DNA from: a virus
Strand: one strand, 5' to 3'
Length of the DNA: 23,152 nt
Virus record (IMG/VR): IMGVR_UViG_3300042261_000591
Location: 1 to 23,152 of that record
The notes under the pieces are model-generated. The model was not told where the DNA came from, made no database searches, and was given only the letters and a program-made list of their open reading frames with translations. A program made the translations under genes and the position numbers. This document shows positions 1,495 through 13,100 of the stretch, piece after piece; the stretch's first letter is position 1; the number at the start of each line of letters is the position of its first letter.

Positions 1495-1509
1495 TATAAT
1501 ACTTTCAGA
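1495..1509 (+). promoter_or_regulatory. Cassette promoter, copy 3 (long leader)
   Basis: TATAAT 1495-1500 plus actttcaga, with CCCC before it. The terminal GTTCA of the motif is replaced by GAAGC. The nearest ATG is 121 nt away instead of about 30. Confidence 0.6.
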
Positions 1510-1615
1510 AGCGAACCCTCCCAGCGAAACCACCCGACAGCGGGTCAGGTCCTGTGGTAAGATCCTTCACTTGCTGTAGGGGAGATCAGCACCCCACCCC
1601 AAAGCATTTCACCCG

Positions 1616-1750
1616 ATGACCGATCGTTCCTTTCAGACTGCCATCGCTGCCATGTGCTTCGCTATGGTGAGCATTGTGGCAGGCGCCTGGACCATCCACC
1701 TTGTGACACCTCAGCAAGTGGCACCCCAAGCGTCCACGATCACCATCTGA
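1616..1750 (+). CDS. Small single-pass membrane protein, 44 aa
   Basis: ATG 1616 to TGA 1748-1750. After a short polar N-terminus (MTDRSF), residues about 8-28 form a hydrophobic helix (AIAAMCFAMVSIVAGAWTIH) long enough to span a membrane. The C-terminal tail (VTPQQVAPQASTITI) is polar. There is no clear Shine-Dalgarno. GC-rich codon use matches the flanking cassettes, which supports it as coding. Its stop abuts the next cassette promoter. The role is unknown; small inner-membrane peptides are common in phage early regions. Confidence 0.55.
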   Translation: MTDRSFQTAIAAMCFAMVSIVAGAWTIHLVTPQQVAPQASTITI

Positions 1751-1755
1751 CCCCC

Positions 1756-1773
1756 TATAATACTTTCAGTTCA
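1756..1773 (+). promoter_or_regulatory. Cassette promoter, copy 4 (best consensus)
   Basis: TATAATACTTTCAGTTCA, a full match to the cassette consensus, preceded by CCCCC. The ATG is 31 nt downstream of the -10 start. Confidence 0.75.
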
Positions 1774-1786
1774 GAGGCACACCTCC

Positions 1787-2032
1787 ATGAAGGTCACTCC
1801 CATCGGCTCCAACCAAACCCAAGTCTCCCTGGCAGACGGGACTGAGGTCCTGTTCTCCTACGCCACCCCCGTCGCCGCCTTGGTGCCTGGTAAGGGGTGG
1901 ATGCGGACTGAAAAGACCCATAGCGTCACCACGACCAAGCACGTTAACCGCTGGTTGAACAACAACGCCAGCACCTACGCTAAGGTGGCGCTTGTGCCAC
2001 AATGGGATCTGGACCAACTGGTGGCGTTCTGA
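1787..2032 (+). CDS. DUF8033-like cyanophage protein, 81 aa
   Basis: An 81-aa protein with the pattern MKVTPIGSNQTQVSLADGTE, then VLFSYATPVAA and WMRTEKTHSVTTTKHVNRWL. This closely fits a small family common in phages and cyanophages (DGT.VLFSY.TPVA......TS...SVTTT.HINKW), which I remember as DUF8033; the family name is the less certain part. The N-terminus is beta-rich and one amphipathic helix lies near VNRWL. The start is supported by the 31-nt spacing from TATAAT. The GAGG 5-14 nt upstream could act as a ribosome binding site. Function unknown. The stop codon lies inside a hairpin loop. Confidence 0.8.
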   Translation: MKVTPIGSNQTQVSLADGTEVLFSYATPVAALVPGKGWMRTEKTHSVTTTKHVNRWLNNNASTYAKVALVPQWDLDQLVAF

Positions 2033-2043
2033 GGGGCGCCACC
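2020..2043 (+). terminator. Hairpin with stop codon in loop
   Basis: GGTGGCG (2020-2026) pairs perfectly with CGCCACC (2037-2043). The 10-nt loop contains the TGA (2030-2032). No T-tract; the next promoter starts 4 nt later. Confidence 0.5.
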
Positions 2044-2046
2044 CCT

Positions 2047-2064
2047 TACAATACTCTCAGATCA
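2047..2064 (+). promoter_or_regulatory. Cassette promoter, copy 5
   Basis: TACAAT followed by actctcagatca, preceded by CCCCT. The ATG is 30 nt downstream of the -10 start. Confidence 0.7.
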
Positions 2065-2076
2065 AACGAACCGACC

Positions 2077-2253
2077 ATGACCTACGCTCAGATCACCGCC
2101 TCCGAACTCTCCGCCTCTGAGGCACGGTGCGCCATCTTTGACCTGGCAGACGACTTCTCCTGGGAGACCGTCGCCCGTGAGATGATCTCCCGCATGAGCG
2201 GCGATGAGGCGCGGGAGTTTGTGGAGGACTTCATCTCCCTCTATGCCGATTGA
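2077..2253 (+). CDS. Small acidic helical protein, 58 aa
   Basis: ATG 2077 is preferred over the in-frame 2002 because 2002 lies inside the preceding gene and upstream of the promoter. The product MTYAQITASELSASEARCAI... is acidic and predicted all-helical, ending EFVEDFISLYAD. No family is recognised. Its tail (REFVEDFISLYAD) loosely recalls the partial gene at the left edge (EFVMD...D), and the sequence after both stops is also shared (TGAGG.ACTGGCACA), hinting at duplicated cassettes. Function unknown. Confidence 0.65.
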   Translation: MTYAQITASELSASEARCAIFDLADDFSWETVAREMISRMSGDEAREFVEDFISLYAD

Positions 2254-2258
2254 GGCAC

Positions 2259-2287
2259 TGGCACACTGGGGGTCACACCCGACCCCC
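2259..2287 (+). terminator. TGGCACA element plus GGGGGTC/GACCCCC hairpin
   Basis: TGGCACA (2259-2265), then a perfect 7-bp stem (2268-2274 with 2281-2287) with an ACACCC loop and no T-tract. Confidence 0.6.
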
Positions 2288-2295
2288 TGACCCCC

Positions 2296-2313
2296 TACAA
2301 TACTCTCAGTTCA
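2296..2313 (+). promoter_or_regulatory. Cassette promoter, copy 6
   Basis: TACAATACTCTCAGTTCA, a full consensus match, preceded by CCCCC. The ATG is 30 nt from the -10 start. Confidence 0.75.
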
Positions 2314-2325
2314 CAAGGAAACCCG

Positions 2326-2511
2326 ATGAAAGTCTACGCCGTCATCGCTGGAACCGACTACGAAGGGCAATCCTTTGACTCCCTGCGTCTGTTTGATTGC
2401 CGCTCCACCGCTGAGGATTATGAACTGGAACTGCAGAAGCAGTTCGGTGTAGACTACACCCTGCTGGAAGTGCGGGAGGTCTGCATGAAGTCCGCTCTGG
2501 CAACCGCCTGA
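2326..2511 (+). CDS. Small hypothetical protein, 61 aa (MKVYAVIAG type)
   Basis: A 61-aa protein starting MKVYAVIAGTDYEGQSFDSL. A beta strand, then SLRLFDCRSTAEDYELELQK forming a helix, then a second strand YTLLEVREV, suggest a small beta-alpha-beta fold. It resembles the widespread phage peptides of the form MKVYVV.....YEG......F.....AE.Y, which have no assigned function. This leader is one of the few with a plausible Shine-Dalgarno (AAGGA, 10 nt before the ATG). It is a single-gene unit. Confidence 0.7.
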   Translation: MKVYAVIAGTDYEGQSFDSLRLFDCRSTAEDYELELQKQFGVDYTLLEVREVCMKSALATA

Positions 2512-2516
2512 GCAAC

Positions 2517-2552
2517 TGGCACACTGGGAACGGCAGCGCCCCAAAGACTGCC
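2517..2552 (+). terminator. TGGCACA element plus GGCAG/CTGCC hairpin
   Basis: TGGCACA (2517-2523), then GGGAAC and a hairpin of GGCAG (2532-2536) with CTGCC (2548-2552). Loop CGCCCCAAAGA. A variant with compensatory changes occurs at 2960-2981. Confidence 0.55.
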
Positions 2553-2553
2553 C

Positions 2554-2571
2554 TACAATTCTCTCAGTTCA
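2554..2571 (+). promoter_or_regulatory. Cassette promoter, copy 7
   Basis: TACAATTCTCTCAGTTCA. The ATG lies 32 nt from the -10 start. The promoter abuts the hairpin ending at 2552. Confidence 0.72.
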
Positions 2572-2585
2572 CCAAACGAACCCCA

Positions 2586-2750
2586 ATGCGTTACAACCCC
2601 GCCACCGACCGCGCCTGCAGCATTGAAGAGATCGCTGCCCAGTGCAAAGCGGCAATCCTGAAGGCAGATGCCTGCCGCGCCATCGACACCGCCTACGATG
2701 AGATTCTGACCTTCTACCGCTGGGAGGAGGATCTGCTGGTCGCCGCCTGA
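2586..2750 (+). CDS. Small hypothetical protein, 54 aa
   Basis: ATG 2586 to TGA 2748-2750. The product starts MRYNPATDRACSIEEIAAQC and continues as a long helix rich in Ala, Glu and Lys, ending YRWEEDLLVAA. Three cysteines are present (residues 11, 20 and 29) without a metal-binding spacing I recognise. The start is supported by the promoter distance. The next promoter begins immediately after the stop, with no hairpin between. Function unknown. Confidence 0.6.
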   Translation: MRYNPATDRACSIEEIAAQCKAAILKADACRAIDTAYDEILTFYRWEEDLLVAA

Positions 2751-2755
2751 TCTGC

Positions 2756-2761
2756 TACAAT
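2756..2761 (+). promoter_or_regulatory. Cassette promoter, copy 8 (downstream part replaced)
   Basis: CTGCTACAAT, like copy 10 at 3435, but the downstream CTCTCAGTTCA is replaced by a GGGGGC/GCCCCC hairpin (2765-2782). Only the -10 box is conserved. Confidence 0.45.
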
Positions 2762-2764
2762 ACA

Positions 2765-2782
2765 GGGGGCAGCAACGCCCCC
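2765..2782 (+). other. GGGGGC/GCCCCC hairpin in the leader
   Basis: A perfect 6-bp stem (2765-2770 with 2777-2782) and AGCAAC loop, nearly the same sequence as the terminator at 590-607. Here it lies after the -10 box, so it would be in the transcript leader or force an early stop. Confidence 0.55.
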
Positions 2783-2803
2783 TCCACCCCATCACCTGAA
2801 CCG

Positions 2804-2947
2804 ATGAGCACTCGCTACGAAGTCCGCTACCGCGTCCCCTACAATGAGTGTGAGTGGCGCTCCCAGTTCTTCCGCACCCTTGACGAAGCGGAGCGCATGG
2901 TCGCCTTCTACCGCTCCTGTGGGTCGCCCGCTCACCTGGCACCCTGA
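2804..2947 (+). CDS. Small hypothetical protein, 47 aa
   Basis: ATG 2804 to TGA 2945-2947. The product begins MSTRYEVRYRVPYNECEWRS, a beta hairpin pattern. It continues FFRTLDEAERMVAFYRSCGSPAHLAP, a helix plus a short tail, which recalls a widespread phage peptide type (YEVRY.....W....F.TL.EAE....F..S.G). The last codons overlap a TGGCAC sequence. No function is known. It probably shares a transcript with the next small gene, which lacks its own full promoter. Confidence 0.6.
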   Translation: MSTRYEVRYRVPYNECEWRSQFFRTLDEAERMVAFYRSCGSPAHLAP

Positions 2948-2959
2948 ACCAATGGGAAC

Positions 2960-2981
2960 GGGAGCGCCCTTAAAGACTCCC
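2960..2981 (+). terminator. GGGAG/CTCCC hairpin, variant of 2532-2552
   Basis: GGGAG (2960-2964) pairs with CTCCC (2977-2981), loop CGCCCTTAAAGA. TGGGA (2953-2957) could also pair with TCCCA (2978-2982). It has the same layout as 2532-2552 but a changed, still paired, base pair. Confidence 0.5.
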
Positions 2982-3011
2982 AGCAAACCAACCAACTATC
3001 CTAGCACACCC

Positions 3012-3155
3012 ATGACCCTTGACCTTGCCATCTCCCTGCTCCGCCAGGGCCGCAACGGTTCCCAGATCCTGAGCATCCTGGAGGGACTTGAAGACGGACA
3101 GCGCATCGCCCAGGAGGGTGACGCCGAACCGACCGCCGATCCGATCCAATTCTGA
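3012..3155 (+). CDS. Small hypothetical protein, 47 aa
   Basis: ATG 3012 is chosen because in-frame upstream starts overlap the previous gene. The product MTLDLAISLLRQGRNGSQIL then SILEGLEDGQRIAQEG is a pair of helices followed by an acidic, proline-containing tail (DAEPTADPIQF). LLRQG.NGSQIL.IL resembles the small cyanophage pattern of alternating leucine helices, but no domain is recognised. There is no cassette promoter before it. The only -10-like string, TATCCT at 2997, is too close to the ATG. Co-transcription with the gene at 2804 is more likely. Confidence 0.55.
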   Translation: MTLDLAISLLRQGRNGSQILSILEGLEDGQRIAQEGDAEPTADPIQF

Positions 3156-3158
3156 TAG

Positions 3159-3191
3159 TGGCACAACGGAGGGGCACACCCCCTCCCTTTT
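3159..3191 (+). terminator. TGGCACA element plus intrinsic terminator
   Basis: TGGCACA (3159-3165), then GGAGGGG (3168-3174), loop CACAC, CCCCTCC (3180-3186), C and TTTT. A good Rho-independent terminator. Confidence 0.75.
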
Positions 3192-3196
3192 GCCTC

Positions 3197-3214
3197 TATA
3201 CTGATCTCAGTTCA
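3197..3214 (+). promoter_or_regulatory. Cassette promoter, copy 9
   Basis: TATACT followed by gatctcagttca. The leader after it (gacaaagacc) is the same as in copy 2. The ATG is 29 nt from the -10 start. Confidence 0.7.
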
Positions 3215-3225
3215 GACAAAGACCG

Positions 3226-3429
3226 ATGAACCGCAACGCCGCCGACCTGCAACAGTTCCTGGATGACCTGACCCCCCTGGAGCGGGAGGCAATCGCCAAT
3301 GCTACCGCTCAGGATTGGATCGACGCCTTCGGTTCCTGTGTGAAAGATCCTGAGTTCTGGCAGGGTATCGGCGCCGCCTTCCTGGAGGGTCTGCAACGGG
3401 GTCTGAACGACTACCTGAACGACCGCTGA
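3226..3429 (+). CDS. Small acidic helical protein, 67 aa
   Basis: A 67-aa protein starting MNRNAADLQQFLDDLTPLER. The whole sequence reads as amphipathic helices (FLDDLTPLEREAIANATAQDW, then FWQGIGAAFLEGLQRGLNDYL) separated by a short turn with one Cys. It is acidic and cytosolic, with no membrane segment. No family is recognised. The leader matches that of the gene at 649, which supports the start. It is followed directly by the next promoter with no hairpin. Confidence 0.65.
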   Translation: MNRNAADLQQFLDDLTPLEREAIANATAQDWIDAFGSCVKDPEFWQGIGAAFLEGLQRGLNDYLNDR

Positions 3430-3434
3430 CCTGC

Positions 3435-3449
3435 TACAATACTCTCAAC
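3435..3449 (+). promoter_or_regulatory. Cassette promoter, copy 10
   Basis: CTGC then TACAATACTCTCAACCA; the final GTTCA is lost. The ATG is 28 nt from the -10 start, and the previous stop is 5 nt before the box. Confidence 0.6.
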
Positions 3450-3462
3450 CACAATCGACCCG

Positions 3463-3642
3463 ATGATCCGCCAAGGTCCCTTCCTGATCAACGCCACCGC
3501 CGCCGCTGATCCTGCCTGCCAAGCGGCGATGGCATCCTACCTGGAGCGCCTGCAGCAGGAGGAAGTCCGCCGCGAAGCGATCCGCTCAGGTCGGGCACCC
3601 GCAGGACAGTGGGCAACCTGGCACATCAGCGACCGCCACTGA
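3463..3642 (+). CDS. Small hypothetical protein, 59 aa
   Basis: ATG 3463 to TGA 3640-3642. The product starts MIRQGPFLINATAAADPACQ. It continues with a charged helix (MASYLERLQQEEVRREAIRS) and a basic, tryptophan-containing tail (GQWATWHISDRH). The central helix could form a coiled coil or dimer interface. No family is recognised. Codon use is strongly GC-ending like its neighbours. Confidence 0.55.
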   Translation: MIRQGPFLINATAAADPACQAAMASYLERLQQEEVRREAIRSGRAPAGQWATWHISDRH

Positions 3643-3656
3643 TCCTCCCCACCCTC

Positions 3657-3671
3657 TATAATTCTCTCAAG
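3657..3671 (+). promoter_or_regulatory. Cassette promoter, copy 11
   Basis: TATAAT followed by tctctcaag. The first ATG is only 17 nt from the -10 start; a second in-frame ATG (3719) is 62 nt away. Neither has the usual 30-nt spacing. Confidence 0.6.
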
Positions 3672-3673
3672 CG

Positions 3674-4237
3674 ATGCCCGCCGCCCAACTTCGCTGGTAT
3701 CACCAACTGGATCCTGAAATGACCGCCGCTACCATCACCACCGCTCAGCAGCAATACCTGGACGCCTTCGCTGCCCTCTACGAAGCAGCGGACGCCCTGA
3801 ACGCTGGCGACCCCATGTCCTATGCCCGCTCCCGTGAGATCCACCTTGCCTGCCTCCTGGGGCACACGGTCGCTGATACCTACAGCGGCGCTGACGCCTA
3901 CGAAGCGGACGGGACCCCTGTAGAATACAAGTCCACCATCGGCGCTCAGATCAGCGCAACCTACAATGGCATCAGTGTGCAACCGACCTGGGAGGATCAG
4001 GAAGCATACCTGATCGACCACAAAATCGGCGCCTATGCCCGCCACTATTATGCCCGCTACGAAGGCGCCCAGGTCGCTGAGGTGTGGGTCCTGGATTCTG
4101 ATACGGTGCTCTCCCTGCTCCTGCCGAAGGCACAGAAGCAATACGCCAGCAAGCGCAACGGCAAGGCAAAGGACCCCCGCATCGGTGTCACCCTCTCCGC
4201 TGGTGAGATCCGCCGTTACGGTCGCCGCCTGGTATGA
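3674..4237 (+). CDS. Putative PD-(D/E)XK nuclease-fold protein, 187 aa
   Basis: By far the largest cassette protein. Residues 74-88 (DAYEADGTPVEYKST) give D79-x4-E84-x-K86, a good PD-(D/E)XK signature, with E55 on the preceding helix (SREIHL) as a further candidate ligand. A conserved-looking block follows (ATYNGISVQPTWEDQEAYL, 95-113), then HYYARYEG....EVW, LLPK and the C-terminal DPRIG....AGEIRRYG. I recall similar proteins in cyanomyoviruses without assigned function. Endonuclease activity is inferred, and host or rival-phage DNA is the likely substrate. The start is ambiguous: 3674 would leave almost no leader, while 3719 would give a 172-aa protein that keeps all motifs. The stop overlaps the next start (ATGA). 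Confidence 0.6.
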   Translation: MPAAQLRWYHQLDPEMTAATITTAQQQYLDAFAALYEAADALNAGDPMSYARSREIHLACLLGHTVADTYSGADAYEADGTPVEYKSTIGAQISATYNGISVQPTWEDQEAYLIDHKIGAYARHYYARYEGAQVAEVWVLDSDTVLSLLLPKAQKQYASKRNGKAKDPRIGVTLSAGEIRRYGRRLV

Positions 4238-4401
4238 TTCGCGCCCTGACCCGTTCCCGCTCCGCTGACTTCCACCGTGCTACCATGCTCCGCCTCCTGA
4301 TCGCTGGCACCCTGCTGTGGTTGCTCTGGGAACCGATCCGCCCCGTGCGCCTTGTGACAGCAGAGGCACTGTACACTGCAGGCGACCTGATCCGCCGCTG
4401 A
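4234..4401 (+). CDS. Small membrane protein, 55 aa, coupled to the nuclease-like gene
   Basis: ATG 4234 overlaps the upstream TGA as ATGA, typical of translational coupling. It is the only cassette gene with such an overlap and it has no promoter of its own. After a basic N-terminus (MIRALTRSRSADFHRATMLR), a hydrophobic helix at about 18-33 (MLRLLIAGTLLWLLWE) is followed by a polar tail with RPVRLVTAEALYTAGDLI. The positive-inside rule predicts an N-in, single-pass protein. Similar small cyanophage proteins with the pattern W....R.VT...L....D.I are remembered but have no function. Coupling suggests a job linked to the nuclease-like protein. Confidence 0.6.
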   Translation: MIRALTRSRSADFHRATMLRLLIAGTLLWLLWEPIRPVRLVTAEALYTAGDLIRR

Positions 4402-4406
4402 CCCTG

Positions 4407-4424
4407 TAGACTTCTCTCAGTTCA
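4407..4424 (+). promoter_or_regulatory. Cassette promoter, copy 12
   Basis: TAGACT (weak -10) followed by tctctcagttca, a full downstream match. The ATG is 30 nt from the -10 start. Confidence 0.6.
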
Positions 4425-4436
4425 GACAACCAACCG

Positions 4437-4658
4437 ATGATGACCTTCGCCACCCTCTCCAACGATGAGATCGTCAAACTGCTTGACGACGCCAACGTCT
4501 GGCACGATGACGCCCAGTACGATGCCTGCTATGCCGAACTGGTGAAGCGCGACGCCCTCCCTGCTTACATGAGCGAAGACCTGGAGTGCGGCGCCTATGA
4601 TGACGATGCCGACCTGGAGTCCTACTCCCTGGAGTGCGCCTTCGGTCCTGAAGAGTGA
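4437..4658 (+). CDS. Very acidic small protein, 73 aa
   Basis: Starts at ATG 4437, or 4440 (MMTF). The product MMTFATLSNDEIVKLLDDAN then VWHDDAQYDACYAELVKRDA is helical. The C-terminal half is dominated by Asp and Glu (SEDLECGAYDDDADLESYSL), ending FGPEE. The strong negative charge resembles DNA-mimic or inhibitor peptides used by phages against host nucleoid or nuclease proteins, but that is a guess from charge alone. No family is recognised. The gene is followed by a 7-bp G-run/C-run hairpin. Confidence 0.65.
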   Translation: MMTFATLSNDEIVKLLDDANVWHDDAQYDACYAELVKRDALPAYMSEDLECGAYDDDADLESYSLECAFGPEE

Positions 4659-4663
4659 CACCT

Positions 4664-4690
4664 GAGGGGGTGTCCACCGATGCCCCCCTC
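4664..4690 (+). terminator. GAGGGGG/CCCCCTC hairpin
   Basis: A 7-bp stem (4664-4670 with 4684-4690) with a 13-nt loop, following the stop after 5 nt. No T-tract. Confidence 0.5.
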
Positions 4691-4707
4691 TCCCCCCACC
4701 GACCCCC

Positions 4708-4725
4708 TATAATTCTTTCAGATCA
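4708..4725 (+). promoter_or_regulatory. Cassette promoter, copy 13
   Basis: TATAAT followed by tctttcagatca, preceded by CCCCC. The ATG is 29 nt from the -10 start. The leader (aaacgaaacgac) is close to that of copy 5. Confidence 0.72.
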
Positions 4726-4736
4726 AACGAAACGAC

Positions 4737-4934
4737 ATGACCACGACCACCGACTTCTACATCAAGCGCACCTACGGGGACTTCTTCGGGAAGGTCTCCC
4801 ACGTGGACTTCATCGGTCCCTACGGTGAGGATCAGGAGTTCGCCGTTGCGATGCAGCGTGGGCACGACCAGCGCCGTGCCAAACCCGCTAAGATCCAGAT
4901 CATCAAATGGGAGTGGGTTCAGGGTAAGGACTGA
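4737..4934 (+). CDS. Small hypothetical protein, 65 aa
   Basis: A 65-aa protein starting MTTTTDFYIKRTYGDFFGKV. Aromatic-rich alternation (FYIKRTYGDFFGKVSHVDFIGPYG) suggests a small beta sheet. A basic segment with HDQRRAKPAKIQIIKWEWVQ follows. The C-terminal half is positively charged, so nucleic acid contact is possible but not shown. No family is recognised. The start has an ATG at 29 nt from TATAAT. The next cassette begins about 20 nt after the stop. Confidence 0.65.
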   Translation: MTTTTDFYIKRTYGDFFGKVSHVDFIGPYGEDQEFAVAMQRGHDQRRAKPAKIQIIKWEWVQGKD

Positions 4935-4954
4935 TCCTTCGTCCCCCTTCGTGC

Positions 4955-4972
4955 TACAATTCTCTCAGTTCA
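4955..4972 (+). promoter_or_regulatory. Cassette promoter, copy 14
   Basis: GTGCTACAAT continuing to a full TACAATTCTCTCAGTTCA. The ATG is 33 nt from the -10 start. Last of the series. Confidence 0.72.
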
Positions 4973-4987
4973 CACCCCACCCCTCCG

Positions 4988-5176
4988 ATGGCAATCTTCT
5001 CTCAGTGCAGCGACCTCCAGACCCGCGAAACCATGTGGGTCGCTCGCAAGACTGACGACGCACCTCAGACCCGCTACGCTGGACAGATCACCACCGCTGA
5101 GGGTTGGTGGTGGGCAGGGTGCCACGCCGACCGTTACCAGCAGGAAGCGGTCGATCGCCTGCCGCAGTGGGGGTGA
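4988..5176 (+). CDS. Small hypothetical protein, 62 aa
   Basis: A 62-aa protein starting MAIFSQCSDLQTRETMWVAR. The run AEGWWWAGCHADRY (three tryptophans, Cys, His) is unusual; with Cys7 it leaves a possible but unproven metal-binding set. The C-terminus is short and helical (QEAVDRLPQWG). No family is recognised. It is the last gene of the GC-rich block and is followed by the strongest terminator in the window. Confidence 0.6.
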   Translation: MAIFSQCSDLQTRETMWVARKTDDAPQTRYAGQITTAEGWWWAGCHADRYQQEAVDRLPQWG

Positions 5177-5208
5177 CCCCCGCCCCCGTGCGTTCGTGAT
5201 CCGCAGTG

Positions 5209-5249
5209 CCCCCCGTTCGCGGGGGGTCGCGGCGCCGCGCCGCGTTTTT
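5209..5249 (+). terminator. Tandem double-hairpin terminator with T-tract
   Basis: CCCCCC (5209-5214)/GGGGGG (5221-5226) with loop GTTCGC is followed 1 nt later by CGCGGCG (5228-5234)/CGCCGCG (5238-5244) with loop CCG, then TTTTT. This is the strongest terminator in the window, and base composition switches to AT-rich immediately after it. Confidence 0.85.
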
Positions 5250-5391
5250 AAAAAACGCTAACTACCCTAATCTATAAAGTGTTACCAAAGCGAGCTAAAA
5301 ATACACAAGGCACTTGAAAATTTTTTCGGTAATAAAAAATACACACAAGGTCGCTATATAATACCGAAAAATAAAATAATATTAAGGGCGG
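5250..5391 (+). promoter_or_regulatory. AT-rich control region with direct and inverted repeats
   Basis: A gene-free stretch. It holds a direct repeat (AAAAATACACAAGG at 5297-5310 and AAAAAATACACACAAGG at 5334-5350) and a 10-bp inverted repeat (TTTTTCGGTA 5322-5331, TACCGAAAAA 5362-5371). The inverted repeat arms flank and touch a -10 box, TATAAT 5357-5362. The arrangement suggests an operator for the gene at 5392. Confidence 0.5.
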
Positions 5392-5568
5392 ATGAAAAAA
5401 AATTTCGATGATAATATAGAAACCATCAGTGTTGATCCAATCACAGGTGAGTATTATGTTGTAATACCTGAGTGGATCGCTAATGAATTATCTTGGTACG
5501 AAGATACTGAGATTAAGTTTAATGTCGAGGGCGATGAAGTTGTTCTGAGTGAAAACAAAGGATCTTGA
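5392..5568 (+). CDS. MazE/AbrB-like small protein, 58 aa
   Basis: ATG 5392, with AAGGG 4-8 nt upstream as a Shine-Dalgarno. The product starts MKKNFDDNIETISVDPITGE and continues YYVVIPEWIANELSWYEDTE, IKFNVEGDEVVLSE. The layout, beta strand, IP then a short helix (EWIANEL), GDT/EDT-like turn, I.F.VEGDEVVL, matches the AbrB/MazE swapped-hairpin fold (I-P...L.....D.....DG..I.L). It may be a DNA-binding regulator or antitoxin-like protein. It is unusually acidic, which argues against strong DNA binding. The inverted repeat around its promoter fits autoregulation. No toxin partner is seen next to it. Confidence 0.6.
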   Translation: MKKNFDDNIETISVDPITGEYYVVIPEWIANELSWYEDTEIKFNVEGDEVVLSENKGS

Positions 5569-5594
5569 CGTTCCTCTATATAATATGTTATGAT
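5565..5594 (+). promoter_or_regulatory. Sigma70-like promoter
   Basis: TTGACG (5565-5570), 18-nt spacer, TATGAT (5589-5594). The -35 overlaps the preceding stop codon. A TATAAT at 5579 lies too close to this -35 to use it. ATG 5618 follows at 24 nt. This is the only place in the window with a recognisable -35 box. Confidence 0.5.
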
Positions 5595-5617
5595 CTGAAA
5601 TGTAATTACAATCAATT

Positions 5618-6385
5618 ATGGCTAAAGGATTTACTGTTAAAGCAAAAACTCCAGTCGTCGCCAAAAGCAATTCGAGCACCGAAGAATTCGATTACGATCT
5701 TGCCAAAGAAATGGTAAGAGGTAAAAGTATCGTTTTCTGCTTGCCAGGTCGCGGAGTTTCATACACTTACTTAAAAAATTTCGTACAACTTTGTTTTGAT
5801 CTGGTGCAAGCAGGTGCAAGTATCCAGATCTCTCAAGACTACAGTTCGATGGTAAACTTTGCACGTTGCAAGTGTCTAGGTGCAAATGTTCTTCGTGGAC
5901 CTGATCAAGTTCCCTGGGATGGAAAACTGAAATATGATTATCAACTCTGGATTGATAGTGATATTGTGTTTAACTCCAATAGTTTCTGGCAATTGGTTTT
6001 GATGGATAAAGATATCGCTGCAGGTTGGTATTGCACCGAAGATGGTCGTACTACATCTGTTGCACATTGGTTGGAAGAAGATGACTTCCGTAATAATGGT
6101 GGAGTGATGAATCACGAAACTCTCGAAAGCATCTCTAAGCGTCGTAAACCATTTACTGTAGACTACACTGGTTTTGGATGGCTTCTAATCAAATATGGTG
6201 TCTTCGAACACGCTGAGGTTAAGTATCCTTGGTTTGCTCCAAAGATGCAAGTCTTTGAGTCAGGTGATGTTCAAGATATGTGTGGTGAAGACGTTTCATT
6301 CTGTCTTGATGCCAAAGAAGCAGGATTTGAGATTTGGTGTGATCCTCGCATTCGCGTTGGTCACGAAAAGACTCGCGTTATCTGA
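5618..6385 (+). CDS. Glycosyltransferase-like protein (GT-A type), 255 aa
   Basis: A 255-aa protein. After a basic tail, SIVFCLPGRGVSYTYLKNF (37-55) opens a Rossmann-like nucleotide-sugar domain. DSD (113-115, in YQLWIDSDIVF) is the DxD metal and nucleotide-sugar motif. The segment at 223-250 (GEDVSFCLDAKEAGFEIW, then RIRVGHEK) fits the ED base plus GH ending common in GT-A glycosyltransferases. Similar genes are common in cyanomyoviruses. The acceptor is unknown: virion protein, modified phage DNA base or host surface glycan are all possible. It is preceded by a sigma70-like promoter and heads a compact run of genes. Confidence 0.75.
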   Translation: MAKGFTVKAKTPVVAKSNSSTEEFDYDLAKEMVRGKSIVFCLPGRGVSYTYLKNFVQLCFDLVQAGASIQISQDYSSMVNFARCKCLGANVLRGPDQVPWDGKLKYDYQLWIDSDIVFNSNSFWQLVLMDKDIAAGWYCTEDGRTTSVAHWLEEDDFRNNGGVMNHETLESISKRRKPFTVDYTGFGWLLIKYGVFEHAEVKYPWFAPKMQVFESGDVQDMCGEDVSFCLDAKEAGFEIWCDPRIRVGHEKTRVI

Positions 6386-6390
6386 TTCAT

Positions 6391-6558
6391 ATGGAAACAG
6401 AAGAAAGATATCACATCTATGTGGGTAATGAGAGAAAATTCTCTCATCTTACAGCAGAAGAATATTTTTCAATTATGGAGGATCTGTCGATTGAGTTTTA
6501 TGAGACGGGTTCTCCAAATCCCAAAACAATTCGTACTGAAATACTGAGGAACTATTGA
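6391..6558 (+). CDS. Small acidic hypothetical protein, 55 aa
   Basis: ATG 6391 starts 5 nt after the previous stop; TGA ends at 6558, 2 nt before the next ATG. The product starts METEERYHIYVGNERKFSHL and continues TAEEYFSIMEDLSIEFYETG. This is a beta strand, then a helix, then a polar tail. The tight spacing and AT-rich codon use match the neighbours, supporting a real operon member. No Shine-Dalgarno is obvious. No family is recognised. Confidence 0.65.
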   Translation: METEERYHIYVGNERKFSHLTAEEYFSIMEDLSIEFYETGSPNPKTIRTEILRNY

Positions 6559-6560
6559 TT

Positions 6561-6713
6561 ATGGCTGTAAAATCTAAAGTTGGTCTGAATAAGAGCGGTT
6601 ATATCCCTGGTAAACCGAAAAAGTCTCGTCAGGGAGATGGAATGGGAACCAAATACGCCGCTTCGTCTCGTAATGGAGCACGTAAAAAATACAGAGGACA
6701 GGGTAAGGGATGA
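6561..6713 (+). CDS. Conserved very basic cyanophage protein, 50 aa
   Basis: A 50-aa protein starting MAVKSKVGLNKSGYIPGKPK and ending SSRNGARKKYRGQGKG. It is dominated by Lys, Arg, Gly and Ser with almost no hydrophobic core, so it is probably disordered and nucleic-acid binding, or a scaffold-like virion component. I recall near-identical peptides (MAVKSKVGLNKSGYIPGKPKK) across cyanomyoviruses as hypothetical proteins. AGGA 11-14 nt upstream serves as the ribosome site. Its stop directly abuts the next start (TGAATG). Confidence 0.8.
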   Translation: MAVKSKVGLNKSGYIPGKPKKSRQGDGMGTKYAASSRNGARKKYRGQGKG

Positions 6714-7169
6714 ATGAAAGACCTTGAGGAATGGATAGAGAGAGTTAAACATTCACATCCAGACCTAAAAGGTTTTTCTATATGCCCTTTTGCAAAGGCA
6801 AATACCTATAAAATAGTCAAATCCCCAATAAACGACATCAAACCTCTCAATGAAGAGTTTGGTGTCGTTATTTTTGTGGTTGAGGATGATCTTGATATTG
6901 ATTATGGTTATCAAAAGATCGAAGAACTCAACGAAAAATACCCAAAATACAAATTTTTTGATGATTTTCGGGATGAACCCAGTTTTATTAATGGTGTTCA
7001 AACAAATAATGGGTTGTACAACTTAGTTTTGTATCAAGATACCGAATTTTTGACTAAAATGAGGAAAATTTTAGCAAAAACAGAGTATTATGACTTATGG
7101 GACGATGAGTATCTGAAAAAAATACTCGAAAAGGACTATAAAATAGTCCAAAAAATAAGAAATAAATAG
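6714..7169 (+). CDS. Hypothetical protein with CPFA motif, 151 aa
   Basis: ATG 6714 follows the previous TGA with no gap, with AAGGG at 6706-6710 as Shine-Dalgarno. The product has GFSICPFAKANTYKIV at about 20-35, then beta-alpha-beta segments (EFGVVIFVVEDDLDIDYGYQ, helix KIEELNEKYP) and a helical acidic-basic C-terminus. The CPFA(K) motif near the N-terminus recalls DUF1415, which carries LCPFA, but the rest does not convince me. It resembles uncharacterised cyanophage proteins with SICPFA. A catalytic cysteine is possible. AT-rich. Confidence 0.6.
   Translation: MKDLEEWIERVKHSHPDLKGFSICPFAKANTYKIVKSPINDIKPLNEEFGVVIFVVEDDLDIDYGYQKIEELNEKYPKYKFFDDFRDEPSFINGVQTNNGLYNLVLYQDTEFLTKMRKILAKTEYYDLWDDEYLKKILEKDYKIVQKIRNK
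7161..7168 (+). promoter_or_regulatory. Possible T4-type late promoter before speD
   Basis: AATAAATA (NATAAATA form) overlaps the previous gene's stop region, 37 nt before ATG 7205. It is in a naturally A-rich stretch, so a chance match is quite possible. Confidence 0.3.
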
Positions 7170-7204
7170 ATTTTTTGTGCATTTGTGCCTTGGAAAAGTT
7201 TTCG

Positions 7205-7531
7205 ATGGGTAAGCACCTGCTTCTAGAGGTGTATGATGTTGACTTTGAAGCGATTAATGATGTAGAAGCGCTTCAAAAAATAATGCTTCAGGGCATAGAA
7301 CGCGCAAAGATGACCGTTCTCAATGTATTTTCACACTGCTTTATACCACAAGGGTGTACGGTTGTCATTGCACTTGCAGAAAGTCACGTTTCCTGTCATA
7401 CTTGGCCAGAAAATGGATGCATTGCAATCGATGTTTACACGTGCGGAGAAGGAAATCCACGTTTAATCGCCATCGAGATGCTTAAACATTTAAATTCAAC
7501 TAACTATAATATAAGGGAAATATACAGATAA
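7205..7531 (+). CDS. speD: S-adenosylmethionine decarboxylase proenzyme
   Basis: A 108-aa SpeD-type enzyme that decarboxylates S-adenosylmethionine to supply aminopropyl groups for spermidine. E59-S60 in LAESHVS is the self-cleavage site that makes the pyruvoyl group. H65 (in HTWPENGCIAIDVYTCG) and C80 sit exactly 5 and 20 residues after S60, the spacing of His68 and Cys83 relative to Ser63 in the Thermotoga enzyme. The residue 8 before the Ser is Thr52, where Thermotoga has Ser. Start 7205 is preferred over the in-frame 7175 because it matches the family start (MGKHLL.E), with GGAAAAG 9-15 nt upstream. Such genes are known auxiliary metabolic genes in T4-like cyanophages. Confidence 0.93.
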   Translation: MGKHLLLEVYDVDFEAINDVEALQKIMLQGIERAKMTVLNVFSHCFIPQGCTVVIALAESHVSCHTWPENGCIAIDVYTCGEGNPRLIAIEMLKHLNSTNYNIREIYR

Positions 7532-7591
7532 GTTGCGCCAAGGGATAGCAACCCCTCTAAAAGTTCTGTTTAACCTTTTTGGAGAAAACAG

Positions 7592-7852
7592 ATGGCAACT
7601 AACCCCAATCCTGATAGAGATCGTGAATATATGTACCAAATGTGGGGTACGGATAAACTCATAACCGACTATAGTATGTTACCTGAGAATTATAAAAAAC
7701 AAGTGATACAAGAAATTATGCACGATGAGATTCCTGCTAAAAAGCATAATTTAACTGAACAAACTAAAATTCATGAGCAAATTCGTAATGATGAAGATTA
7801 CGATGATTGGGAATATGGGACTGAACCAACATACGGTTCTTCCTGGAAGTAG
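7592..7852 (+). CDS. Charged hypothetical protein, 86 aa
   Basis: ATG 7592 with GGAG at 7581-7584, a good Shine-Dalgarno. The product starts MATNPNPDRDREYMYQMWGT. It continues mostly helical and charged (YKKQVIQEIMHDEIPAKKHN) and ends in an acidic aromatic tail (NDEDYDDWEYGTEPTYGSSW). No membrane segment or catalytic motif is visible, and no family is recognised. A GTTGC/GCAAC stem-loop lies just after speD and before this gene. The gp25 late promoter starts 2 nt after its stop. Confidence 0.65.
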   Translation: MATNPNPDRDREYMYQMWGTDKLITDYSMLPENYKKQVIQEIMHDEIPAKKHNLTEQTKIHEQIRNDEDYDDWEYGTEPTYGSSWK

Positions 7853-7853
7853 G

Positions 7854-7861
7854 CATAAATA
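7854..7861 (+). promoter_or_regulatory. T4-type late promoter for the tail module
   Basis: CATAAATA, one base off the T4 late consensus TATAAATA, 32 nt before the gp25 ATG and just after the previous stop. The next two genes and the giant ORF follow with almost no gaps, so it may drive all of them. Confidence 0.65.
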
Positions 7862-7885
7862 ACTTTAGAAATTTCTACATAATAA

Positions 7886-8287
7886 ATGCCTGTACAGAGG
7901 GTATCAAGGGGGTTTAAAGATATTAGTTTATCTTTTGAACCCCATCCTGTTACTAAAGATCTGCCTGCTTTAACCAATGAGCGTGCAATTCTTCGTTCTG
8001 TCAGAAATTTAGTGCAAACAGTTCCTACCGAAAGAGTTTTTAACTCTGCCCTTGGTTCTGAGATTACACAAAGTTTATTCGAATTTGTTGATTATGGTAC
8101 GGCAGCAGTAGTTCGAGAGCAAATTATTACATCAATTAAAAACTTTGAGCCTAGAATTACTAATTTAGTCGTTGAAGTTGATCCACAACCAGACTTAAAT
8201 ACGTTTGAAGTTGATATTTCCTTTGATATTCTTGGTCAAGAAACTCCAGCGCAACAATTTACGTTCATATTAGAGGCAACTAGGTAA
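7886..8287 (+). CDS. 25: Baseplate wedge subunit gp25
   Basis: 133 aa, against 132 in T4 gp25. The start MPVQRVSRGFKDISLSFEPH, then NERAILRSVRNLVQTVPTER, the FNSALGSEI turn and LFEF, and the C-terminal EVDISFDI and F.LEATR are the standard gp25/gpW family features (sheath initiator in contractile tails). It is assembled into the baseplate wedge with gp6 and gp53 and nucleates sheath polymerisation. The start is supported by the late promoter. It is followed 1 nt later by gp6, the usual cyanomyovirus order. Confidence 0.95.
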   Translation: MPVQRVSRGFKDISLSFEPHPVTKDLPALTNERAILRSVRNLVQTVPTERVFNSALGSEITQSLFEFVDYGTAAVVREQIITSIKNFEPRITNLVVEVDPQPDLNTFEVDISFDILGQETPAQQFTFILEATR

Positions 8288-8288
8288 A

Positions 8289-10187
8289 ATGCCTTTTACA
8301 AAATTCACAAATCTAGATTTTGATCAAATTAAAACCTCTATCAAAGATTATCTCCGTGCAAATTCTAACTTCACGGATTTTGACTTTGAGGGATCTAACT
8401 TTTCGGTTTTAATTGACACTTTAGCATACAACACTTACATCACTGCCTTTAACACCAATATGGTGGCAAATGAGGCATTTTTAGACTCAGCGACTGTAAG
8501 AGAAAATGTAGTATCTCTTGCTAGGAATATTGGTTATGTTCCACGATCAAGAACAGCAGCAAGAGCAGAAGTTTACTTTACTGTTCCAACATCATCAACA
8601 TCACCAACACTAACATTAGATGCAGGATTGGTTTGTGTTGGAAATGTAAACGATAGTTCTTATGTTTTTTCGATTCCCGAACCAATTACTGCACCGATTA
8701 TTAACGGCGCCGCTCAATTTGGAACGGTAAGTGCTCCTATTGAGATTTGTCAAGGAACATTTCTTAAAAAGCAATTTGTAGTAAATGGTTCTCTAGACCA
8801 AAGATTTTTCCTTGATAACTCATTTATCGATACCTCAACAATTATAGTAAAAGTTAAAGGTGCTGCAGATAGTGGAGAAGGTAAAGAATACGCACAAGTA
8901 AGTAATATACTAAATGTTAAGGCAACTTCTGAGACTTATCTTCTGCAAGAAATCAAAGACGAAAAATATGAACTTCTATTTGGTGATGGAATTTTTGGTA
9001 AGAAACTTGAGAATGGTTCAGTTATCACAGTCACTTATATAATCACTGATGGTGATAGTGGTAATGGTCCAGGTGTATTTGATTATGCAGGGACCGTTCG
9101 TGGATCTGTTAGTGAACTAGTTATTCCCACTGGTAGTATTTCAGTTACAACTGTTAGAAATGCTCAAGGTGGCGGTGAGATTGAGTCTATTGATTCTGTG
9201 AAGTATTTTGCACCTAGATTGTATTCATCGCAGTACAGGGCGGTTACAGGTAGGGATTATGAGTCAATTATACAATCAATATATCCAAATACAGAATCTG
9301 TATCTGTTGTTGGTGGTGAAGAGTTAAATCCACCACAATTTGGTAAAGTTTTAATTAGTATTAAACCTAAAAATGGTGATTTTGTTTCTGACTTTGATAA
9401 ACAACTTATTCTAAGTAAACTTAAAAATTATTCTTTAGTTGGTATCAAACAAGAACTTATCGATCTTAAGATTCTTTACGTTGAGCTTGATACTAATGTT
9501 TATTACAATTCTTCTCAGATAACAAATATAGAAAATCTGAAGTCCACAGTTTATAATGTAATTAATTCTTATTCCAAATCTGTTGATATGAACAAATTTG
9601 GCGGAAGATTTAAATATAGTAAAATACTACAGTTAATTGATAACTCAGATGCTGCTATAACTTCTAATATTACAAAGGTCATTATTAGAAGAAATATAAA
9701 CGCACAACTTAATAGATTTGCACAATATGAATTATGTTTTGGAAATCAATTCCACGTTAATCCATCTGGATTAAATGTTAAAAGTACAGGATTTAATATT
9801 TTTGGTGAATCTAACATCTGCTATTTTACCGATATACCAAATTCGGATTTAACTTCTGGTATTATTTCTATTGTCACTCTAGATGAAGGATCTACAAATT
9901 ATAGAGTAGTTAATAATAATGTAGGATCTGTTGATTACCTAACAGGTGAAATATTCTTAGGTCCTGTTCAGATTACATCAACAGTTAAGAATAACAATGT
10001 TATCGAAGTACAAGCATATCCAGAATCCAATGACGTTGTTGGATTGAAGGACCTATATCTGGCGTTAGATGTCTCAAATAGTAAGATAAATATCGTTAGA
10101 GACACAATATCTTCAGGTGAACAGATATCGGGGGTTGGATTTAAGGTCACATCAAGCTATTCAAACGGAGAATTAACGAGGAGATAA
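8289..10187 (+). CDS. 6: Baseplate wedge subunit gp6
   Basis: 632 aa, against about 660 in T4 gp6. The N-terminal segment MPFTKFTNLDFDQIKTSIKD, then DFDFEGSNFSVLIDTLAYNT, NMVANEAFLDSATVRENVVS and IGYVPRS is highly typical of gp6 (Baseplate_J-like family). A second conserved part is SSQYRAVTGRDYESIIQSIY with GGEE, near 320-350. The C-terminal part forms the dimerisation and trifurcation region in T4. Two gp6 copies per wedge make the iris-like ring around the hub. It starts 1 nt after gp25 and ends 3 nt before the giant ORF. No frameshift is seen. Confidence 0.93.
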   Translation: MPFTKFTNLDFDQIKTSIKDYLRANSNFTDFDFEGSNFSVLIDTLAYNTYITAFNTNMVANEAFLDSATVRENVVSLARNIGYVPRSRTAARAEVYFTVPTSSTSPTLTLDAGLVCVGNVNDSSYVFSIPEPITAPIINGAAQFGTVSAPIEICQGTFLKKQFVVNGSLDQRFFLDNSFIDTSTIIVKVKGAADSGEGKEYAQVSNILNVKATSETYLLQEIKDEKYELLFGDGIFGKKLENGSVITVTYIITDGDSGNGPGVFDYAGTVRGSVSELVIPTGSISVTTVRNAQGGGEIESIDSVKYFAPRLYSSQYRAVTGRDYESIIQSIYPNTESVSVVGGEELNPPQFGKVLISIKPKNGDFVSDFDKQLILSKLKNYSLVGIKQELIDLKILYVELDTNVYYNSSQITNIENLKSTVYNVINSYSKSVDMNKFGGRFKYSKILQLIDNSDAAITSNITKVIIRRNINAQLNRFAQYELCFGNQFHVNPSGLNVKSTGFNIFGESNICYFTDIPNSDLTSGIISIVTLDEGSTNYRVVNNNVGSVDYLTGEIFLGPVQITSTVKNNNVIEVQAYPESNDVVGLKDLYLALDVSNSKINIVRDTISSGEQISGVGFKVTSSYSNGELTRR

Positions 10188-10190
10188 TAT

Positions 10191-13100
10191 ATGATTACAA
10201 CTGGGTTTGATGCGAGAGTTAAAGTTGGTCAAATAATTGAAAGTCAACTTCCAGAGTTTTTACTTACAGAAAGTCCAAAAACTGTTGATTTTTTCAAGCA
10301 GTATTATCTTTCTCAGGATTTTCCTGGTGGACCTGCTGATATTGCAGAAAATTTAGATCTATATCTAAAATTAGATAATTTAACTCCAGAAGCAATGTCT
10401 GGATATACGACATTGACTTCTGATGTGTCAGTAAGTGATACTGAAATATTTGTAGAGAGTACAAAAGGATTTCCTCCAAAAAATGGATTACTCCAAATTG
10501 ATAGTGAGATTATCACGTATTCGGAGATAACAGTCAATAGTTTTGTTGGATGTATTCGTGGATTTTCTGGTATAACCAGTTGTACTTCTTCTTTAGACAA
10601 AGAAGAATTAGTTTTTTCAACTTCTTCAGCGGACAGTCATAGTTCTCAATCTAAAGTTACAAATTTAAGTATTTGTTTCTTAAAAGAGTTTTATCAAAAA
10701 TTAAAAACAAGTTTAACTCCAGGACTAGAAAATGTAGATTTTACTGATAATCTGGATGTTAGTAACTTTATAAAAGAGGCGAGAACTTTCTATCAAGCAA
10801 AAGGAACTGAAGAGTCTTTTAGAATTCTTTTTAATGTTCTTTTTGGAGAAACTCCAAAAATAATTAATCTAGATGGTTTACTTTTACGTCCATCTTCAGC
10901 TCAGTACTTAAGAAGAGAAATTGTTATATGTGAGGCAATTAGTGGCGATCCTTCTAAACTAATAGGACAAACTCTATATAAAAAGACTGATTTAGAAACT
11001 AAAGCATCTATTTCAAATGTAGAGATTGTAACAAGAGGAGTAGATACTTTTTATAGGTTAGATTTGTTTTTAGGATATAGTGATACTGATTCAATTCAAG
11101 GAACTTTTGTAGTAACACCAAAGACAAAAGTAATTGGAGATGTTTCTGTAGGTTCTTCTGTTATCACTGTTGATTCCACAGTTGGATTTTCGGAGTCGGG
11201 TGTTATTATTTCTGGAAGAAATACTATTTCTTATACAGAAAAAACAATTAACCAATTTTTAGGTTGCTCTGGAATTGATTTTGAGATATCATCTACTGAT
11301 GATATTCGTTCTGATGACATTTACTTTGGATATGAAAACGCTAACATCTCAAATATTTGTGAAGTAAGAATAACAGGAGTTTTATCTGATTTTATCGCAT
11401 TATCAGATACACAACAAATAAATGAGAATGAAAATATATCTGTTAAAAATGTTGGAATATCAATTAAGAATCCAGCACAAAATAAAACTTTTCTAGAAAT
11501 TTTTGCAAACTCTTGGGTTTATAATACTAGTACAAGATATGAAATATTATCTATCAGCGGTGCATCATTTACACTTGCAAGTTCTATAGATAAATCAAGT
11601 CTAAAAGAAGGGGATTTAGTTGATATTGTTCGTAGATCTTCCAACACTGTTGTAGCAACAAATGCTGTTGTTGGCAATATCAATCCTTCTAGTAATCAAG
11701 TTACATTAAACAATATCATTGGATTTGTTGCAGATCCATCTCTCTCTTATGATTTAAGAAGAAAAATAAACAAAGCAAAATCATCAAGTTCTGCAGTTGA
11801 AATACAATATGGAAATAATGTTATTACCTCCGATATACAAAATGTTTATCTAGATGACAATAGAGAATATTTTTACGTTGCATCTAATTCTCTACCATCG
11901 TATGAAATTAATATAGAATTAGTTAAAGCAACACTTACAAACGGTGAAGGTGGAACTTCTTTACAAGGTCTAGATGTAGAAACTTTACTATATCATATTT
12001 TATCTTTCCCCAGCACTGTTCCATTTCAAACTGGAGATGAAGTAATTTATGTTCCAGAATCTCTTTCTCTAGAGGGATTGACCCCAGGTGCTTCTTACTA
12101 TGTAAAAATAGATCCTCTAAATGCTAATAAAATTACACTTTATCAATCAAGATCATTTATTGAAGTAGATGATTATGTAGAATTTTATGCATTGCCACCA
12201 GGATCTGGTGGGACTCATAACTTTATCTTAGCAAGTCAAAAAGAATTATTTTTAAAACCGCAGAAAAACTTAATTAAGTTACCTGCAAGTCCTAATATTA
12301 TCAATGGATCTAATGAAAAAACTCAACCTGGAAAAGTAGGTGTTCTTATAAATGGTGTTGATATTTTAAATTATAAAACTGAAGATAAAGTTTATTATGG
12401 ACCTATCGAAAAAATTAAATTATTAAACAAAGGAACAAACTATGATGTTTTAAATCCACCAACAATTACGATATCTTCTCCTGTTGGTGGTGGCGTAACA
12501 GCGTTAGTTCAGCCAGTCGTTAGTGGAAATGTTCAAGGTGTTTTTGTTGATGCACAAGAATTTGATATAGAAAAAGTAATTTCCGTTACAATTAGTGGTG
12601 GAAATGGATTTGGTTGCGTTTTAGAACCTATTTTAGAAAAAAGGTATAGAGAAGTCAATTTTGACGCAAGAGTTTTGGATGACTCTGGTGGTGTTGACAT
12701 TGACTTGGAAACAATATCTTTTCTAACAAATCATAATTTTAAAGATGGTCAAAAGATTATATACAATCCCAATGGAAACGAACCGTTAGGGGTCGGTACA
12801 TATGAAGGAGGTAATTTTGATCAGGATCTTTCACTAGTCAATGGTGCAACTTATTACGCAAAATTAATCAACAATAAAACCATTAAACTATATCCAAGAT
12901 TTGATGATTATATTTCTGGTATTAATACCATTGGATTTACAACAATAAGTGCTGTAGGAATTCATAAATTCAGAACCTTTGATCCTCAAACAACGATTAA
13001 AGAAATAAAAGTTACTAACTCTGGAAATGGATATCAAAACAGAAAATTAATTATTAAACCAGAAAAAGTTGTAACAACGCAAGATTGGATAACTTTTGAT

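Follow-up and report, generated by a model that had tools for sequence, protein, structure and literature searches.

Two overlapping genes in a viral contig raise the question of what a small predicted nuclease does for a T4-like cyanophage, and with which partner it acts. The contig, referred to here as the window, is the entire stretch of DNA analysed and makes up the whole virus record (23,152 bases). Its right part is a T4-like cyanophage baseplate region with synteny to Prochlorococcus phage P-SSM2, and its left 5 kb form a block of small open reading frames (ORFs) of ~60% G+C. Within this block, a sequence-only reading had described a putative PD-(D/E)XK nuclease coupled to a membrane peptide, and had proposed a two-part unit that degrades host or competing DNA near the membrane or excludes superinfecting phages. 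Both ORFs lie where that reading had placed them (Table 1), sharing the four nucleotides ATGA at 4234–4237.

Table 1. Features of the nuclease locus, in window coordinates
Feature	Position	Strand	Remarks
-10-like element CTATAATTCTCTCA	3656..3669	+	exact copy 5' of the nuclease gene; precedes most ORFs of the block
Predicted PvuII-fold restriction endonuclease, 187 aa	3674..4237	+	phrog_35715; fold and conservation
CATG within the nuclease gene	3814..3817	+	one of 17 in the window
Codon E55	3836..3838	+	in helix 51–62; invariant together with R54
Codon D74	3893..3895	+	invariant motif aspartate; aligns with PvuII D
Codons E84-Y85-K86	3923..3931	+	invariant ExK, strand 82–89
55-aa peptide, probably membrane	4234..4401	+	phrog_2128, E 1.7e-6; ATGA overlap with the nuclease ORF

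Predicted fold and active site of the nuclease

The nuclease ORF is a real gene, with relatives in 43 viral loci when the single protein served as query; an alignment-based search matched 388 stretches, and the top 80 were retained. Translation may begin at M16 (3719), where most relatives start. The protein matches phrog_35715 (E 1.5e-65), which is the nuclease family itself, includes P-SSM2 T4-GC 2880 and is annotated in PHROGs and GenBank records as hypothetical or of unknown function. Pfam, NCBIfam and PADLOC returned nothing for the nuclease or the 55-aa peptide, a PDB sequence search with the single nuclease protein gave a chance match only, and a pattern scan of genome contigs found no bacterial relatives. 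Among phage records, 6 of 50,697 carry the nuclease.

An AlphaFold2 model of the nuclease (mean pLDDT 87, pTM 0.82) presents helix 51–62, strands 82–89 and 95–100, helix 106–116 and strand 123–130 in that order, a PD-(D/E)XK alpha-beta core with D74, E84 and K86. Its best PDB match is PvuII endonuclease (Foldseek E 1.1e-5, probability 1.00), with PvuII entries falling between 1.1e-5 and 1.4e-4. The structural alignment to PvuII (Z 13.4, rmsd 3.6) places 130 residues on a 154-residue chain. PvuII entries fill the first nine rows of structure matches (Z 12.0–13.4), followed by the restriction enzymes Eco15I and NhoI (Z 9.5–10.7) and, at lower rank, by Hjc and RecU (Z 6.6–8.1), I-Ssp6803I (Z 7.9) and DpnI. 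A BFVD fold search returned mostly unnamed or uncharacterised viral proteins.

Residues R54, E55, D74, E84, Y85 and K86 are invariant, along with others, in 50 aligned relatives, and D74 and R54-E55 are also constant in 35 of 35 rows of another alignment. A profile alignment sets D74, E84 and K86 on the D, E and K of PvuII, which we take to be its catalytic residues, with the same D-X9-E-x-K spacing; the profile match itself is marginal (E 0.032 and 0.88) and falls below an unrelated top hit (E 0.011). The sequence-only reading had located D79, E84, Y85 and K86 correctly and had chosen D79 as the motif acid. Because D74 is invariant and D79 varies among the 50 relatives, the motif aspartate had been misassigned, and the conserved acid is D74 rather than D79. 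The assignment to PD-(D/E)XK-type nucleases is nevertheless borne out by the predicted fold and residue conservation: structure prediction, which that reading had proposed as a check, recovered the fold, and E84 and K86 are conserved among homologues.

The overlapping peptide and its surroundings

The peptide gene is also real, with relatives in nine loci besides the window's own record. One hydrophobic stretch (about residues 16–32, peak 17-residue hydropathy ~1.7) makes its description as a membrane peptide plausible. The peptide adjoins the nuclease in four of ten peptide-bearing loci (L002, L010, L030 and the window's own record, L001) and lies 0.7–3 kb before or after it in the other six. 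The ATGA coupling of the two genes is lineage-specific, and the peptide appears from gene order to be a separate cassette rather than a conserved partner of the nuclease. Its proposed role as the second half of a two-part unit was not upheld; the coupled partner in the family is a DNA methyltransferase.

Elements resembling CTATAATTCTCTCA (at most three mismatches) occur in 11 copies on the + strand between window positions 1494 and 4967, before most of the small ORFs; over the whole window, 15 were found against 4.1 expected. It could be read as a modular promoter that serves interchangeable cassettes. Within the window, the G+C fraction steps from ~0.60 (1501–5250) to ~0.35 (5500–23152), and several relatives show the same step. 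Where the high-GC block borders on its surroundings, an HNH_3 endonuclease gene with lower G+C (869–1345; Pfam E 1.7e-11) is possibly a homing gene.

A DNA methyltransferase gene linked to the nuclease

Gene order was compared in 71 distinct mid-identity loci, which share 40–80% identity with the window protein and have 700 nt or more of downstream sequence. In 51 of them, a 190-aa DNA methyltransferase, termed c3 here, begins between −14 and +11 nt relative to the nuclease stop. The two genes overlap by 4 nt in 20 of these 51 loci, and four more of the 71 carry c3 elsewhere in the locus. At the nuclease stop, c3 was found in none of 28 window-type loci (at least 80% identity) and none of 4 distant loci. 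Of the five window-type records that extend more than 15 kb upstream, four carry c3 (G001, G004, G006 and G007, not G010), at ~10–15 kb upstream. Linkage of the type II restriction-modification kind is thus present in the family (51/71), and in the window lineage only at 10–15 kb, in four contigs. Overall, c3 was found in 11 of the 35 records searched, and all six nuclease-bearing phage records also hold close c3 relatives (76 c3 hits in phage records, 16 of them not listed by name).

The c3 protein matches the DNA methyltransferase family phrog_799 (E 5.7e-36), its NPPF motif, of the (N/D)PP(Y/F) form, is invariant in 25 rows, and its model (pLDDT 71) has M.TaqI as top fold match (E 3.5e-6). 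It looks like an N6-adenine-type DNA methyltransferase. Beside the distant homologues of the nuclease, a different methyltransferase occurs: a DPPY enzyme overlaps the homologue by 4 nt in L131, overlaps it in L375 and lies just upstream of it in L378. The SPPY methylase gp049, which adjoins the nuclease in P-TIM68, is widespread among cyanophages that lack the nuclease and was for that reason rejected as the cognate enzyme.

Loss of CATG in nuclease carriers

When all 16 four-base palindromes were counted, with no word singled out beforehand, in six long nuclease contigs, CATG was missing from the three contigs lacking c3 and occurred in the three that carry it; CCGG was also absent from the three lacking c3. 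The c3-less records G010, G029, G030 and G031 hold no CATG, with 542, 854, 485 and 199 expected, and CCGG is missing from them too; the whole record of G067, likewise lacking c3, holds 0 CATG of 903. Seven c3-bearing records contain 19 to 250 CATG (observed/expected, o/e, 0.06–0.33). Four long nuclease-free contigs have an o/e of 0.08–0.43, and CATG is kept in 80 of 82 nuclease-free cyanophage loci (median o/e 0.35; absent from two). In host genomes, the median o/e is 0.82, or ~2.7 sites per kb (64 loci, each 10 kb or longer, among L395–L462, of 80 fetched).

At the level of loci with an expectation of at least 10 and class C dropped, CATG is absent from 20 of 98 nuclease carriers against 2 of 82 nuclease-free loci. 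Zero CATG was seen in 8 of 56 loci with c3 in hand and in 12 of 44 without it (Fisher p 0.13), so that c3 in hand does not distinguish loci with and without CATG at this level, partly because short loci cannot show a c3 gene lying elsewhere. The window itself contains 17 CATG against 98 expected, and no methyltransferase gene was found in its contig. If the nuclease is active, a genome with these sites should need a methyltransferase, so c3 should lie further upstream, as in the 93%-identical G001. By part of the window, the high-GC block holds 14 CATG of 29 expected and the remainder 3 of 69.

A prediction fixed beforehand stated that new nuclease carriers lacking c3 would have no CATG. CATG was present in 15 of 16 new c3-bearing loci and absent from 21 new records with neither c3 nor an adjoining methyltransferase, several of which share identical nuclease sequences. 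As worded, the prediction failed in ten loci (L373 and L375–L383). Nine of these belong to two near-identical sets with a DPPY methyltransferase beside the nuclease, found afterwards, and the tenth, L373, is a 7-kb fragment.

Sorting by upstream sequence covered 63 nuclease-bearing records, entered by hand, with shorter contigs and class C left out. CATG is absent in 12 of 12 fetched loci that have at least 16 kb upstream and neither c3 nor an adjoining methyltransferase, and in 16 of 17 with 8 kb upstream, a class that is not equivalent to having no methyltransferase at all, since D12-family enzymes (G029, G067, G069 and G070) and PF01555 enzymes (G021, G030, G031 and G073) are present in c3-less records. 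The exception, L090 (G021), has CATG and a DPPY methyltransferase gene ~4.5 kb downstream. CATG is absent from 1 of 15 c3-bearing records, 0 of 5 with another adjoining methyltransferase and 14 of 26 not classed either way. The 187-kb record G069 has 12 CATG of 955 expected, all in its last 2.4 kb, where 5 of its 13 AGCT sites also lie; this clustering suggests that the end (L479), whose frames beside the CATG sites we take to be plastocyanin-like and terminal-oxidase-like, may be a foreign tract or a chimeric, misjoined assembly.

In a tree of 39 records, ten of which duplicate the nuclease of another row and in which L090 was counted as methyltransferase-bearing after its DPPY gene was noticed, the methyltransferase label changes three times, with two independent well-supported pairs (sign test p 0.5). 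With so few changes (2–3), a Fisher p of 4.5e-10 overstates the evidence linking methyltransferase and CATG. The strength of the CATG evidence is the depth of loss, not the number of lineages.

Other depleted words

AGCT is absent from 20 of 96 nuclease carriers and 0 of 68 nuclease-free loci, a contrast that forms part of a broader depletion of RGCY words, which extends to nuclease-free phages. Most cyanophages (L188–L267), with or without the nuclease, are strongly depleted in the RGCY words (AGCC, AGCT, GGCC and GGCT), and a few lineages (L017, L100 and L378) are near normal. RGCY was rejected as the recognition site on account of its like depletion in carriers and non-carriers, and CCGG because it is also absent from the c3-bearing G001. 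In the window (1–23152), CCGG occurs 0 times of 34 expected, and many relatives are alike. The distant-homologue phage G033 (L273–L277) lacks ACGT and CCGG, and has GATC and CATG at 5–6% of expectation.

Discussion

The explanation that we consider probable is that the gene encodes a type II-like restriction enzyme of the PvuII fold directed at CATG, with the methyltransferase gene lying elsewhere or the genome purged of CATG; we infer the cleavage, the CATG site and the match with c3. The nuclease of a T4-like cyanophage would cut unmethylated CATG, while c3, with its M.TaqI-like fold, would be the matching methyltransferase that marks CATG in the phage DNA. In the window lineage, c3 would be supplied from 10–15 kb upstream, outside the window contig, and in a few lineages a different methyltransferase beside the nuclease would take its place. 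Carriers with neither c3 nor a substitute may survive by having purged nearly every CATG. We lean, by a modest degree, towards the more specific claim that some cyanophages with genomes of ~100–190 kb and no companion methyltransferase are immune through near-total CATG removal, sequence purging replacing DNA marking. The nuclease could then be used against host DNA and co-infecting phages with unmarked CATG; at their near-normal CATG frequency, host chromosomes would be cut. The action on host or competing DNA suggested by the sequence-only reading is compatible with the findings on the nuclease, and its action at the membrane found no support.

A different arrangement would have host restriction drive CATG avoidance, with c3 a protective orphan methyltransferase and the nuclease serving some other role. 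Depletion of CATG in nuclease-free cyanophages, the similar RGCY depletion in carriers and non-carriers, and the commonness of orphan methyltransferases in cyanophages are all in keeping with it. However, host restriction predicts total CATG loss in phages lacking both genes, yet nearly all nuclease-free loci retain CATG; near-total loss tracks the nuclease, and nuclease and c3 adjoin or overlap in most mid-identity loci. We hold this account unlikely.

The remaining alternatives concern the nuclease itself. The recognition sites of homing enzymes are long and rare, and such enzymes lack a methyltransferase partner, which fits poorly with a four-base word missing genome-wide, a linked methyltransferase and a far higher structural match to PvuII. 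A free-standing homing endonuclease mobilising its own cassette is thus very improbable, even though the block is small and mobile-looking with an HNH gene nearby, the homing enzyme I-Ssp6803I is among the fold matches, and homing endonucleases occur in cyanophages, according to an excerpt of PMC3037559. Slightly less credible again is a structure-specific recombination nuclease of the Hjc or RecU resolvase type: both folds were matched, but well below PvuII and over fewer residues, and methyltransferase linkage and CATG loss would be left unexplained. The least credible is that nuclease and membrane peptide act jointly, such as by excluding superinfecting phages at the membrane. Their four-nucleotide overlap and the absence of a promoter-like element between the two genes favour such a unit, whereas the separation of the peptide from the nuclease in six of the ten loci that have the peptide opposes it.

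The restriction enzyme proposed here would have consequences beyond this locus. The predicted word gives a function-unknown family of widespread marine T4-like cyanophages a direct test, and the nuclease offers a route to how cyanophages cut host chromosomes or exclude rivals. If the purging claim is true, CATG-free nuclease carriers would be natural evidence that site purging can replace methylation, and the presence of such a nuclease in the sea may help explain the general CATG poverty of cyanophages.

Comparison with known systems

The closest structural relative, the type IIP enzyme PvuII (CAG|CTG), has the same fold, the same D-X9-E-x-K spacing and a similar size, its subunit being 18.3 kDa according to a passage of PMC4081073. 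The nuclease described here differs in being phage-borne, in its ~15% identity and in its predicted site, CATG rather than CAG|CTG. The partners differ as well: M.PvuII is an N4-cytosine methyltransferase, and the recurrent partner c3 resembles an N6-adenine enzyme.

Among viruses, the best-known carriers of restriction enzymes are giant viruses of algae and amoebae. By analogy, a close parallel may be CviAII of chlorovirus PBCV-1, a virus-encoded restriction-modification system with the word CATG, whose M.CviAII makes m6A, as part of PMC7248222 states. PBCV-1 differs from the cyanophages in being a eukaryotic algal virus that packages its enzymes in the virion, and the packaged chlorovirus enzymes are believed to break down the DNA of the host (excerpt of PMC7019647). 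Marseillevirus likewise encodes a restriction-modification pair, with the word GATC, and this system does not degrade host DNA, as far as an excerpt of PMC7253447 goes. The chlorovirus precedent would thus favour a host-DNA target and the marseillevirus precedent would not; an enzyme of an archaeal virus has been proposed to keep out other viruses (part of PMC10101028). Virus-encoded restriction-modification as such, including a CATG system, is already known. Among the papers that literature searches on cyanophage and phage-encoded restriction listed, none reports, by title and start of abstract, a restriction system in cyanomyoviruses.
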